From positions 1 to 43,551 of the IMG/VR virus record IMGVR_UViG_3300035070_001113: DNA of 43,551 nt; one strand, 5' to 3'. The stretch's first letter is position 1; each line of letters opens with the position of its first letter. The notes under the pieces were generated by a model. It was not told the origin of the DNA. It did not search any database and worked only from the letters and a program-made list of their open reading frames with translations. The translations under genes were made by a program, and so were the position numbers. Below, one piece after another: positions 8,803 through 40,388 of this stretch. The DNA comes from a virus.

Positions 8803-9176
8803 GAAGTTTTCACTTGGGAAAGGGAGCGTTTTGCTCCCTTTTTCTTTTTCTTATCTACTCTTTCTTGATGGTGAAGCTTTCTATGACAGTTAGCGCACAA
8901 CACCATACACTTTTTTATTTCTTCATAGGCTTCTTTGAAATTGTGATTTGACACTAATTTATTAACTGGCCTATTATCTTTACTTCTTTTTATATGATGA
9001 AAATCTATAGTGGATATGTGTCTTTCTCCACATATTTCACAAGATAAAGATTCTTTAAATTCTAACCACTGTTTTTTCAGTCTTTTTTTTCTTTCTTTAT
9101 TTCTCCTAAGATATGTATCTTTATTTTTTAAGTAGTGATCTCTTTTATACTGTTTTCTTTTTTCATCATCTGTCAT
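8745..9176 (-). CDS. HNH endonuclease (free-standing, homing-type)
   Basis: This 143-residue nuclease has a basic N-terminal half (KRKQYKRDHYLKNKDTYLRR) and an HNH core with zinc cysteines C46/C49 (CEICG), the metal-binding DFHH (58-61) and CANCHRKLHH (C94, C97, H98), as in HNH homing enzymes that cut DNA to spread. Its start overlaps the stop of the upstream GNAT gene (ATGA), so the two form a leftward operon. Residues after ~109 (KKKKKGAKRS onward) are encoded by the antisense of the capsid terminator and the capsid 3' end. They do not look like part of the domain, which suggests that the frame simply runs on into older sequence. Confidence 0.9.
   Translation of the reverse strand: MTDDEKRKQYKRDHYLKNKDTYLRRNKERKKRLKKQWLEFKESLSCEICGERHISTIDFHHIKRSKDNRPVNKLVSNHNFKEAYEEIKKCMVLCANCHRKLHHQERVDKKKKKGAKRSLSQVKTSYEAPGEPNIPKGSDTPNE
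8819..8850 (+). terminator. Rho-independent terminator after the capsid gene
   Basis: A 9-bp perfect stem AAAGGGAGC (8819-8827) / GCTCCCTTT (8833-8841) with a 5-base loop GTTTT is followed by a T-rich run interrupted by single C residues to 8850. It lies 16 bases after the capsid stop. In the opposite direction there is no T tract, so it acts on rightward transcription only. It lies inside the coding sequence of the antisense HNH gene. Confidence 0.9.
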
Positions 9177-36981: not shown

Positions 36982-37020
36982 AAAAATCCCCCAGTAAAGT
37001 GTCCGCTCTCTACTAGGGGA
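36980..37020 (-). terminator. Leftward terminator of the replication arm
   Basis: In leftward RNA the stem TCCCCTAGTA (37020-37011) pairs with TACTGGGGGA (36996-36987), nine pairs and one mismatch, with a 14-base loop, followed directly by seven T (36986-36980). It stops transcripts of the right arm just before they run into the giant structural gene on the opposite strand. Read rightward there is no T tract after the stem. Confidence 0.75.
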
Positions 37021-37025
37021 AAATG

Positions 37026-37068
37026 CCTTTCTAACTTTCGGTGAAGGAGAGCCAAAAACCTAGAAAGG
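37026..37068 (+). terminator. Candidate rightward hairpin between convergent arms
   Basis: CCTTTCTA (37026-37033) and TAGAAAGG (37061-37068) make a perfect 8-bp stem with a 27-base loop, followed by ACTTTT. It may be a weak terminator for the structural block or part of a structured RNA. Its loop contains GAGAGC (37047-37052), complementary to GCTCTC in the loop of the adjacent hairpin. Confidence 0.4.
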
Positions 37069-37098
37069 ACTTTTAAAATGAACGAATGTGAGTAAATT

Positions 37099-37290
37099 CT
37101 ACCATTCTATTCTCCAACATCGCAACCCATATCTATTCTTATCTATAACTTGTTTGCATATTACGTTATATTTACGCCTATTTGCCTCCGCTAAGACATA
37201 TTCTTTTACTGGTTTGACGTCCAAACAAGGGATAAAAACAGACGTACCAACCTCAAATTCATTCCAAGATATCCTCACTGGCAGACCCAT
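37099..37290 (-). CDS. Small conserved phage protein (VFIPCLDVK type)
   Basis: 63 residues from ATG 37290 (a TTG at 37308 would add six). The core GTSVFIPCLDVKPVKEYVLA, EANRRKYNVICKQVIDKNRY and a final GLRCWRIEW matches a common small phage protein of unknown function with the pattern FxPCLD...GLRxWR. It overlaps the end of the primase gene by 32 bases in another frame. It is the last gene before the leftward terminator. Basic and probably DNA/RNA related, but no function is known. Confidence 0.75.
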   Translation of the reverse strand: MGLPVRISWNEFEVGTSVFIPCLDVKPVKEYVLAEANRRKYNVICKQVIDKNRYGLRCWRIEW

Positions 37291-40123
37291 TATCCGTATC
37301 ACTTGCAAACCCCTCTAAATCAAAACTATCTAACTTTTTAGTATTGAACTCAAGACATCTAACACTATTTGTTGCGCTAGATAAAGACGTACCTGCTAAT
37401 AATCTTTTCTTCTTTATGCCTAGATAAGACCCACTCTTCTTGTAATCTAACAAAGAGTCTTCAAAACTGATGTAGTTTCTACTGCAATACTGCTGATACA
37501 TACTTTTAGATACATACAGTCTTTCCTCATCTTTCTCTAATCTAGCTACACAAGAGGTTCTAGGTTCTTTTATTGCGCCCATATCTAACCCTGTGCGTTT
37601 ATCTTTACCCACGTTAACAACTGTAATACCTAATGGGTGCGAGTTTAGGAACGCTCCTAGTATCTCTCCATATTCCGTCAAAGAATCTTTGTTACTCTTT
37701 CTACTGTGGTTAATTAAGTTAACGCAATAATCAAATACAGGTTTTATAGGTATATCGTGCAGTCCTAAATCTTTTGCTATCATCCCACCTGTTAGTGCAA
37801 CTGCCGCACCTGCTGACCAAAACCTTTCAGTATTTTTAATGTTAGCGGCTCTATCCATTATCTGGTTTGTTTCGTTTAACTTAGCAATTACATCTGGTAA
37901 GTTGTTTACACAGTATTGAATATACGGTTTTATTGCGTGTCCGTAGTGTTTACTTATCCTACCAAAGTGAGCCTTTGACCACGTTGGGTCATTAAATTTA
38001 TCTACTGGTAACTTGTCTTCCAGTATACGCATTAATTCGGCGTCGGGAAAAGCCTTAATAGATAATAATTTATCTCGTATTCTAGTATTAGAAGTAGATA
38101 CCACAGGAATAGACCAAGTAGTTTTGTTTAATCTTTCTTTATTTGCTTTGGCATCCATTCTATTTTTGCCACGACCTGATGTAATGTCATAGATGAGGTT
38201 ACTCATCATCTTTGGTTCCATGTTTGTTATTTCATCAATAGTCGGTGTTAAACTTTGCATAGAACCTAATCTTTGCATCCTAGAGTTGTGCGTATCATCC
38301 CACTTTAAAACTAATGCTTTTGGGTTTCCATAAATACTATTTAACAAATGTAGCACCGAGGATTTACCTGCCCCACTTCCGGGAGATATCAAATTATATA
38401 ACAACCCATCTAACATACCGTCTCCCACAAACTTCATGAGAGGACCACCAAAACCTAGAAAAAATGCAAAAGCTTTACCGATTCTATCTTCGTGTGCATA
38501 GGCATTGATAATATCTTTCCACGTGTGGAAGTCTCCTCTTTCATGAAACATAGGTGTTAGTATTAGTGTGGGTGTTGTTGGAGGGCTGTATGATGGTTCT
38601 GCCTGTCCAACTCTTATCTCTTTATCTCCATACACAAATAAACTATCTTCGTCATGCCAACCAAACTGTCTCCTAGCTATTTCTGCTTTCTTTTCATTCT
38701 GTAATTTTTCTACTGATTTGTTTATGTATTGCATCAAATAATCCTGTCTTTTTCCTAAAGCTGTTACACCATGAAATGCCACCGCCGCTAAAAATTTATC
38801 TTTAGCCAGAGTAGAACTCAAAGGTACTATGAACTCTCTAACTCCATCCTTAGGTAAATGTAACCTAATTAAAAGACTTTCGCCATCTTCTGGGTCATGT
38901 ATTCTCTTTACTACATATAAATCGTATGGATAAACACATACATTTTCGGGCGGTTCTTCTTCACTCTTTTTAATTTCTATGTATACACCACCTGTAGGCG
39001 GTCTGTTAAATCCACGTGGCGGTAATGGTATTTCATATGTTTGTTTTTCTTTTGTGACAGCATTTTCTTCTTTGACTACATAGTCTTCTACTTTAGATTT
39101 TATAAACTCTTTACCTAACACAACAGGAGAAGTTATCTTGTGTTGACATCCTTCACATCCACCCGGATTCAAAGTTTTAAATGTCTCACATTTATATGGT
39201 CCTTTAGTTTTCGATGCTTTATAAAATGCTTCTTCTTCATTGTAGTGTGGATGCTTGTTAGACATTATCCGAATAGCTTTTGACCTATCTGTACATACTT
39301 CTGCTATAGATAAAACTGCTCTCCACATAGGTTCTTCTAAAGATTCTTGATTACCATATGCGTATACTATTTGGGCGCAACCAACACCCCCCATAGATTT
39401 CTTGAATATTGTTTTAAATTCAGTTTTAAAGTTGCCTTGTAGTTTCTTTGTTAGAGGGTCGGTGTAATCTCTAAAATCTTTTTTCCGTAGTTGGTCAAAT
39501 AAAGATGCCGAACTATATCCACTTACTGCATTTTCTATTTGTTCTAACTCTACAGGCTCACCCTTACTACGCACAACTACTGGTTTTGGTTCATCTCCCT
39601 TGAAGTTAAATGTATCTGGTACACGTAAAATCCTAGCATTGTCAGCCGTGACGTTTGCATCAGCAGAGAAGTTTTTATCTGAACATAAGGCTTTTAAACT
39701 CTCAGCAATAGGCTTCCACGTCTCTTTTGATATCGACGTAGTTAAAACCCAGTAAACGTGTATACCGTTACCAGAATCTACTAACAAAGATGGTTTAGGT
39801 AAACCTGCTTCTCTACGAAAAGCTTTGAAGGCTTTTAAACCATCGGACTTTGTTTCATAGTCTTTATTAGGCCCACAGTCCACATCCATAAAAAAACATT
39901 TAAGTTCTTTAGAATTTTCTTGCGACCTACTACTATCATCAGTAAATGATGCCAAAGCGACGTACGCATCGCTCTTTCTTTCAACTATTCCTTCTGTATC
40001 TTTAACTAATTCATCAACAGTTCTATAAAATTTATCTTTATTATTTTTTCTTTTTATATCTGTAGAACAATATAGACCGTTAGTCGGTAATACAAAAGAA
40101 AGAAACTCTTTCTTTGTAAGCAT
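37259..40123 (-). CDS. Primase-helicase fusion (AEP-type primase, DUF927-type helicase)
   Basis: 954 residues. The N-terminal archaeo-eukaryotic-type primase domain shows the catalytic DxD in FMDVDCG (D80, D82), SGNGIHVYW (117-125) and DNARILRVPDTFN (161-173). A Cys cluster (C312, C323, C326) follows in a PriCT-like region. The C-terminal helicase has GWHDEDSLFVYG (488-499, DUF927-like), Walker A GSGAGKSS (582-589) and Walker B LTPTIDEI (625-632). Such fusions prime and unwind DNA at the fork. The ribosome site AGGGGA lies inside a pair of alternative hairpins (40130-40157). No polymerase gene accompanies it. Confidence 0.9.
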   Translation of the reverse strand: MLTKKEFLSFVLPTNGLYCSTDIKRKNNKDKFYRTVDELVKDTEGIVERKSDAYVALASFTDDSSRSQENSKELKCFFMDVDCGPNKDYETKSDGLKAFKAFRREAGLPKPSLLVDSGNGIHVYWVLTTSISKETWKPIAESLKALCSDKNFSADANVTADNARILRVPDTFNFKGDEPKPVVVRSKGEPVELEQIENAVSGYSSASLFDQLRKKDFRDYTDPLTKKLQGNFKTEFKTIFKKSMGGVGCAQIVYAYGNQESLEEPMWRAVLSIAEVCTDRSKAIRIMSNKHPHYNEEEAFYKASKTKGPYKCETFKTLNPGGCEGCQHKITSPVVLGKEFIKSKVEDYVVKEENAVTKEKQTYEIPLPPRGFNRPPTGGVYIEIKKSEEEPPENVCVYPYDLYVVKRIHDPEDGESLLIRLHLPKDGVREFIVPLSSTLAKDKFLAAVAFHGVTALGKRQDYLMQYINKSVEKLQNEKKAEIARRQFGWHDEDSLFVYGDKEIRVGQAEPSYSPPTTPTLILTPMFHERGDFHTWKDIINAYAHEDRIGKAFAFFLGFGGPLMKFVGDGMLDGLLYNLISPGSGAGKSSVLHLLNSIYGNPKALVLKWDDTHNSRMQRLGSMQSLTPTIDEITNMEPKMMSNLIYDITSGRGKNRMDAKANKERLNKTTWSIPVVSTSNTRIRDKLLSIKAFPDAELMRILEDKLPVDKFNDPTWSKAHFGRISKHYGHAIKPYIQYCVNNLPDVIAKLNETNQIMDRAANIKNTERFWSAGAAVALTGGMIAKDLGLHDIPIKPVFDYCVNLINHSRKSNKDSLTEYGEILGAFLNSHPLGITVVNVGKDKRTGLDMGAIKEPRTSCVARLEKDEERLYVSKSMYQQYCSRNYISFEDSLLDYKKSGSYLGIKKKRLLAGTSLSSATNSVRCLEFNTKKLDSFDLEGFASDTDNGSASEDILE

Positions 40124-40129
40124 AATAAT

Positions 40130-40164
40130 CCCCTAGGGTAGGGGGAATTACCCCCTAGTTTTTT
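40130..40164 (+). terminator. Hairpin: rightward terminator and leftward switch candidate
   Basis: Read rightward, TAGGGGG (40139-40145), loop AATTA and CCCCCTA (40151-40157) are followed by GTTTTTT (to 40164), a good rho-independent terminator. No gene here reads rightward, so it would stop antisense or read-through transcripts. Read leftward, the 40139-40144 strand can instead pair with TAGGGG (40135-40130), which holds the primase ribosome site. The two hairpins exclude each other. Confidence 0.7.
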
Positions 40165-40388
40165 AATTTAGCAACTAACTTTTCTACCTGTTTGATATGC
40201 GTGTCTTGAATTGTAGTAATACCTTTGAACCAATTGTAGACAGTCATCCGAGTAACATTAAGATACTCAGCCACATCATTTACAGGTATATCGTTTTGTA
40301 CACAAATTAACCCTAGTTTTACACCTAACAAGTCTGAGTCCGCTTCGTTAACCGCATTAACAAATTGCACGGAGTAACCTTTTGACAT
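40155..40388 (-). CDS. Small helix-turn-helix DNA-binding regulator
   Basis: 77 residues. The segment GLICVQNDIPVNDVAEYLNV with TRMTVYNWFKG (35-57) is a clear Cro/C1-type helix-turn-helix (VNDVAEYLNVTRMTVYNWF). It probably controls phage transcription or replication; the target is unknown (the 420-439 palindrome is one candidate). Its ribosome site GAGGAG lies in the codons of the acidic tail of the upstream gene, and its stop lies inside the hairpin before the primase. Confidence 0.8.
   Translation of the reverse strand: MSKGYSVQFVNAVNEADSDLLGVKLGLICVQNDIPVNDVAEYLNVTRMTVYNWFKGITTIQDTHIKQVEKLVAKLKN

Follow-up and report, generated by a model that had tools for sequence, protein, structure and literature searches.

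A candidate lineage-specific translational switch between the HTH and primase genes of a virus known from an IMG/VR record

In the leftward mRNA of IMG/VR virus record IMGVR_UViG_3300035070_001113, whose 43,551 nucleotides were analysed in full and are here called the window, the junction between a small HTH protein gene and a primase-helicase-like gene carries three short segments from which two mutually exclusive hairpins can form, one of them burying the ribosome-binding site of the primase gene. The junction may be a lineage-specific, cis-acting element that tunes primase translation by a ribosome-driven exchange of one hairpin for the other, a reading to which we give a probability of roughly 0.4. 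As a candidate translational switch restricted to its lineage it is partly supported, its basis being complementarity, retention within the clade, computed energies and depleted synonymous change.

The junction and its three segments

The leftward junction RNA reads AAC-UAGGGGG-UAAUU-CCCCCUA-CCC-UAGGGG-AUUAUU-AUG, and the features concerned are as follows.

40388-40155, (-): gene for a small HTH protein of 77 aa; matches PHROG 8 transcriptional regulator (E 4e-4) and, below cutoff, Pfam HTH_3 and HTH_23
40157-40151, (-): segment A, UAGGGGG; the HTH gene's UAG stop lies within it; paired with B in all window-clade variants
40145-40139, (-): segment B, CCCCCUA; common to both hairpins; CCCCCU invariant in the clade
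40135-40130, (-): segment C, UAGGGG; harbours AGGGGA (40134-40129), the ribosome-binding site of the primase gene; invariant in the clade
37259..40123, (-): primase-helicase-like gene, 954 aa; DUF927 match, E 8.5e-25, with PHROG DNA primase/helicase matches

The original prediction, made from the letters of the window, had placed A, B and C at exactly these positions, and sequence and folding together confirm both of the stems that it drew: A pairs with B in seven Watson-Crick pairs around the loop UAAUU (-12.7 kcal/mol alone in the window), and B (40144-40139) pairs with C (40135-40130) in six pairs around the loop CCC (-8.9 kcal/mol alone). Segment B is shared, so that A:B and B:C are mutually exclusive, and with AGGGGA held in C the arrangement is the one expected of an SD-sequestering switch. 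The stop codon of the HTH gene does lie inside A, with the UAG ending that gene at 40155. The ribosome site lies within C as proposed, and the spacing of six given for it needs only a small correction, as AGGGGA ends five bases before AUG 40123 and it is AGGGG that ends six before. The claim that A:B frees the site holds only in part for the window, where a weak 3-bp hairpin (GGG 40132-40130 with CCC 40138-40136) is predicted there even with A:B formed; in relatives it is weakened or gone.

Hairpins of the type GGGGG..CCCCC occur once in the window against 0.03 expected, and perfect exclusive triples with 7-bp and 6-bp stems occur once on the minus strand, where 60 dinucleotide shuffles give 0.1 per strand, a chance figure that applies before placement on a ribosome site is required. 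The triple is only moderately rare window-wide, yet it sits exactly on the ribosome site of a gene. The specific A/B/C pattern, sought as a repeated element, is confined to homologous loci. The folding energy of a 61-nt segment is no better than that of shuffles (z -0.6), a score that is uninformative at this length because G and C runs survive dinucleotide shuffling. Apart from A:B, the window has two perfect, GC-rich hairpins with 7 bp or more, a terminator-like GGGAGC..GCTCCC followed by T-rich sequence at 8819-8841, and a palindrome, GTAGGAGTCGACTCCTAC, at 420-439.

Retention within the window clade

The window clade consists of IMG/VR contigs with 85-100% primase identity. Its variants are the window type (L001 and L003, with L008 differing by one loop change), a group comprising L002, L007, L010 and L011 with the junction UUAGGGGGGUAACUCCCCCUGACCUAGGGG, and L004 with the junction UUAGGGGGGAUAAUUCCCCCCUGACCUAGGGG, which L012 shares except for AUAGUU. 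All of them, the relatives at 85-99% primase identity included, retain A:B, with 7-10 bp, and the six B:C pairs; in the clade alignment pairing holds in 96% of the cells for A:B and in 100% of those for B:C. In the L002 and L004 groups A:B is lengthened to 9-10 pairs and A40139 is replaced by G, which can form a G.U wobble with both U40157 and U40135, while L004 and L012 have gained a G in A and a matching C in B. The comparison with relatives for compensatory changes, put forward with the original prediction, was therefore favourable in that both stems are kept in close relatives and unfavourable in that no A:B or B:C pair in the clade alignment shows a two-sided change, the changes found being one-sided G.U substitutions and matched insertions. 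A covariation test on the clade was set aside, as it holds too little divergence for two-sided changes. No DNA match to the window was found among close named phages; the best protein match, Pseudomonas phage Rollin, is at 27% identity too distant for junction comparison, and none of the cellular genomes searched was found to encode a relative.

The substitutions in these relatives also bear on the notion that the hairpin works on the opposite strand, as an intrinsic terminator (TAGGGGG AATTA CCCCCTA GTTTTTT) halting rightward RNA that enters the HTH gene from behind.

40139..40164, (+): terminator-like match from a consensus scan, the A:B hairpin followed by GTTTTTT

The match to the consensus, with seven pairs and six T, is real and the T-run is present in clade relatives too, but the changes that are G.U pairs in leftward RNA become C-A mismatches in rightward RNA, and the T-run derives from the lysine codons at the end of the HTH gene. 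As, in addition, L028 is without a comparable T-run on that strand and this stretch shows no obvious rightward gene, such a terminator is highly improbable. An intrinsic terminator of the leftward operon at the junction was likewise rejected, the stem being followed by CCCUAGGGGAUUAUUAUG and no U-run coming directly after it. The likely terminator of that operon is a strong hairpin and then T7 at 36987-37020 (-), 240 bp past the primase end. Near it, at 37026-37069 (+), an inverted repeat, CCTTTCTA..TAGAAAGG, with an inner hairpin lies just before a short rightward frame and has no Rfam match.

Outside the clade

The original prediction was to stand only if the complementarity was kept wherever the genes are, and this fails beyond the window clade, because L005/L006 and L028-L034 keep the genes without the three-segment complementarity. 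L005 and L006, the nearest outgroup at 69% primase identity, have both genes separated by a 16-nt gap with no hairpin. At about 60% identity, L028-L034 have an A:B-like hairpin, UAAGGGGG..CCCCCUUA, then a U-rich tail and no B:C, their ribosome site, GAAAGG, not being complementary to the hairpin; L059, L089 and L093 have other simple hairpins in the gap. In the tree the window groups with L002, L007 and L004, followed by L005, then L028-L032, with lineages that have the int-alpA RNA lying beyond. In the viral collection 430 loci belong to the HTH family, and at 67 of 70 HTH loci outside the window's close clade a primase homologue is downstream, the other three ending within 115 bases of the HTH stop. 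In L057, L058, L062, L065-L068, L071, L074-L077 and others the two genes abut with almost no gap, so that no RNA element fits between them; conservation is stronger for the gene pair than for the intervening RNA.

A terminating ribosome and the primase ribosome site

In the proposed switch B would by default be held in A:B, which is the more stable hairpin and the first to be made, so that the primase ribosome site would be almost open. A ribosome that terminates on the HTH gene would cover A and release B, which would then be free to pair with C and lock the primase ribosome site, and translation of the HTH gene would in this way bring about a transient drop in primase initiation. By standard toeprint geometry the footprint of a terminating ribosome ends near 40145, and as the stop codon lies in A the exchange is sterically possible.

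The whole junction was modelled with the bases beneath a terminating ribosome held unpaired, and the cost of opening AGGGGA was computed. It is 1.6-3.3 kcal/mol by default versus 9.9-11.3 kcal/mol with a terminating ribosome over A in every clade variant tested, a clade-wide rise of +7 to +9 kcal/mol. The window's own rise, 7.4 kcal/mol, was reached by none of 200 gap shuffles, the opening-cost change at the other four window junctions with a 24-120 nt gap ranges from -2.5 to +1.0, and under the modelled ribosome the outgroup L028 shows no rise and L005 a fall. Within the model, then, the suggestion that a ribosome on A favours B:C and so hides the primase site is energetically coherent throughout the clade and well above the shuffle control. 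When the free gap bases were mutated at random with a load close to that observed, a rise of 7 or more survived in 3% of simulations with one insertion and in 0.7% with three insertions, each with three substitutions as well; among cases limited to those with a strong A:B, the switch property was kept in 22% and 10%, respectively.

The last two figures lead to the main rival of the switch, which is that A:B alone is functional, a plain intergenic hairpin past the HTH stop with a part in protecting, separating or helping to process the two messages, and B:C no more than a consequence of A and the ribosome site each being a run of G. Selection on A:B alone nearly explains the switch property, because given A:B it arises by chance in that 10-22% of simulations, and the L028-L034 hairpin in the same place without B:C, together with the hairpins of other kinds in L059, L089 and L093, fits a function for a hairpin as such. 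Against this, B:C is retained in every clade variant despite changes at A40139 and C40138, and in the window the opening cost rises beyond the range of the shuffle control, and we regard a role for A:B alone as somewhat unlikely. For constraint on the A:B hairpin the evidence is good; for selection on B:C in itself it is only weak.

That ribosome occupancy drives the exchange between A:B and B:C, and how large its effect would be in the cell and what its biological use would be, we infer. The effect may be small, because ribosomes linger only briefly at stop codons and because A:B is the stabler of the two hairpins.

The wider fold and synonymous change

A 141-nt region around the junction is more stable than shuffles (z -3.5, and -3.6 in a second scan) and ranks about sixth of about 620 minus-strand windows, which places it in the most structured 1%. 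In the consensus fold a long stem closes the junction, enclosing A:B together with a hairpin that spans primase codons 2-11.

40168..40192, (-): predicted long closing stem, 5' strand, in the HTH coding end; RNAalifold consensus
40066..40090, (-): predicted long closing stem, 3' strand, in primase codons about 12-20; RNAalifold, 96% of cells paired
40091..40118, (-): predicted hairpin within primase codons 2-11; RNAalifold, its 12 pairs present in each of the six rows

Between HTH codon 66 and primase codon 45, a region picked after the alignment was seen, synonymous changes number 3 versus 14-17 expected in L002 and L007 and 6 versus 15-16 in L004 and L012, a depletion around the junction of about three-fold, and in L002 primase codons 292-357 form an equally depleted stretch. 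Elsewhere in the primase gene, at about codons 200-300 (around 39520-39220), protein and synonymous divergence jump in L007, L010, L004 and L012 and do not in L002 and L011, a pattern in the sequences which suggests that recombination may have occurred inside the gene.

It can be asked whether the functional unit is this larger, clade-specific fold of closing stem, A:B and primase-start hairpin, acting as a translational operator or as a structure bound by a protein, be it the primase, the HTH protein or a host factor. The stability of the 141-nt region and the synonymous depletion across the same span are in keeping with this, as is the greater stability of the junction fold relative to synonymous codon redraws (z -3.1 for the window, -3.0 for L002 and -2.3 for L004, with +1.1 for L005). 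But the six-row consensus of the wider fold holds no two-sided change and no covarying pair, five other minus-strand windows are structured more strongly, and two of these cover the terminator at the end of the operon, and codons rich in lysine and phenylalanine favour the coding hairpin. A functional unit of this kind is improbable.

Relation to known RNAs

A scan of the window at Rfam gathering scores gave no family, hence no known riboswitch aptamer, and sub-threshold matches (PreQ1 with 16 versus 39 bits, and others) are far below cut-off. On the modelled energies the junction device is predicted to behave like a translational attenuator, and it is in no Rfam family tested. In erm-type attenuators, as in the ermC leader, the position of an upstream ribosome sets which of two exclusive hairpins forms and so whether a downstream ribosome site is open or closed. 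The proposed switch would share this logic, but in the window the polarity is reversed, the upstream ribosome being predicted to close the site, and in place of a leader peptide on which a drug stalls the ribosome there is a real gene for a 77-aa protein. The phage lambda cIII messenger is also comparable, having two exclusive conformations with the ribosome site hidden in one of them, but gene and sequence are different. The c4 and P4 CI antisense RNAs are small structured phage RNAs that act close to genes for replication or immunity and whose loops are complementary to targets in the vicinity. The c4 RNA is listed as RF01695 (PMC2864571). RNAs of this sort resemble those of the int-alpA relatives and not the window, and the Rfam scans of the window and relatives reported no c4 match.

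In many distant relatives the HTH-primase gap is 85-110 nt long and is the Rfam family int-alpA (RF02996), with scores of 38-50 bits against a covariance-model cut-off of 35.8 bits (L045, L048, L049, L050, L051, L053, L054, L060 and L070).

L045:3235-3303, L048:3241-3312, L051:3229-3295, L060:2823-2889, L070:3229-3301 and others: int-alpA between the HTH and primase genes

Rfam lists int-alpA only as an sRNA, and the literature search on it gave a list entry and no function. Its loop is complementary to the tail that follows its enclosing stem, GCCGUC with GACGGC in one lineage, where L042 reaches up to nine pairs (GCCGUCAAU/AUUGACGGC), and GCCGAA with UUCGG in L051 of the other, so that this pairing has changed on both sides between lineages. 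All sequences of the first lineage (L037-L054) have a second complement, GACGGC or GGCGGC, which overlaps the primase ribosome site AAGGACGGCUAUG; the second lineage is without a GACGGC copy there. U-rich tails after the hairpin are found in int-alpA relatives as in L028. The window and its close relatives are without int-alpA across their scanned records, and the window has none of its enclosing stem with two inner hairpins, its CGAAAAG junction or its pseudoknot loop. What is common to the two is the gap itself and, in one int-alpA lineage, the option of exclusive pairing at the primase ribosome site.

The HTH-primase gap could on this comparison be a standing site of RNA switches that target the primase ribosome site, with int-alpA choosing between tail and ribosome site in one lineage and the window lineage having replaced it with a minimal three-segment hairpin of the same either/or logic, an idea that is unlikely as it stands. 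The presence of int-alpA in the gap of sister clades, and of only a bare hairpin or no element at all closer to the window, would suit a neutral relic of an int-alpA-type RNA, or chance, now without function, and chance alone would give about 0.1 such triples per strand. Yet the pairing is kept across 6-15% protein divergence and random mutation destroys it, and no int-alpA match is left in the window; relic and chance are together very improbable.

Implications for the control of phage replication

If the proposed switch exists, translation of a small regulator would hold back the gene that follows it, that of the replication primase, through an RNA device of 30 bases, with a polarity opposite to that of classical translational attenuators. 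The comparison ties the HTH-primase gap to int-alpA and offers a direct test of int-alpA action on the primase ribosome site, and if the gap is indeed a standing site of such switches, the orphan int-alpA family would gain a cis role in phage replication control.
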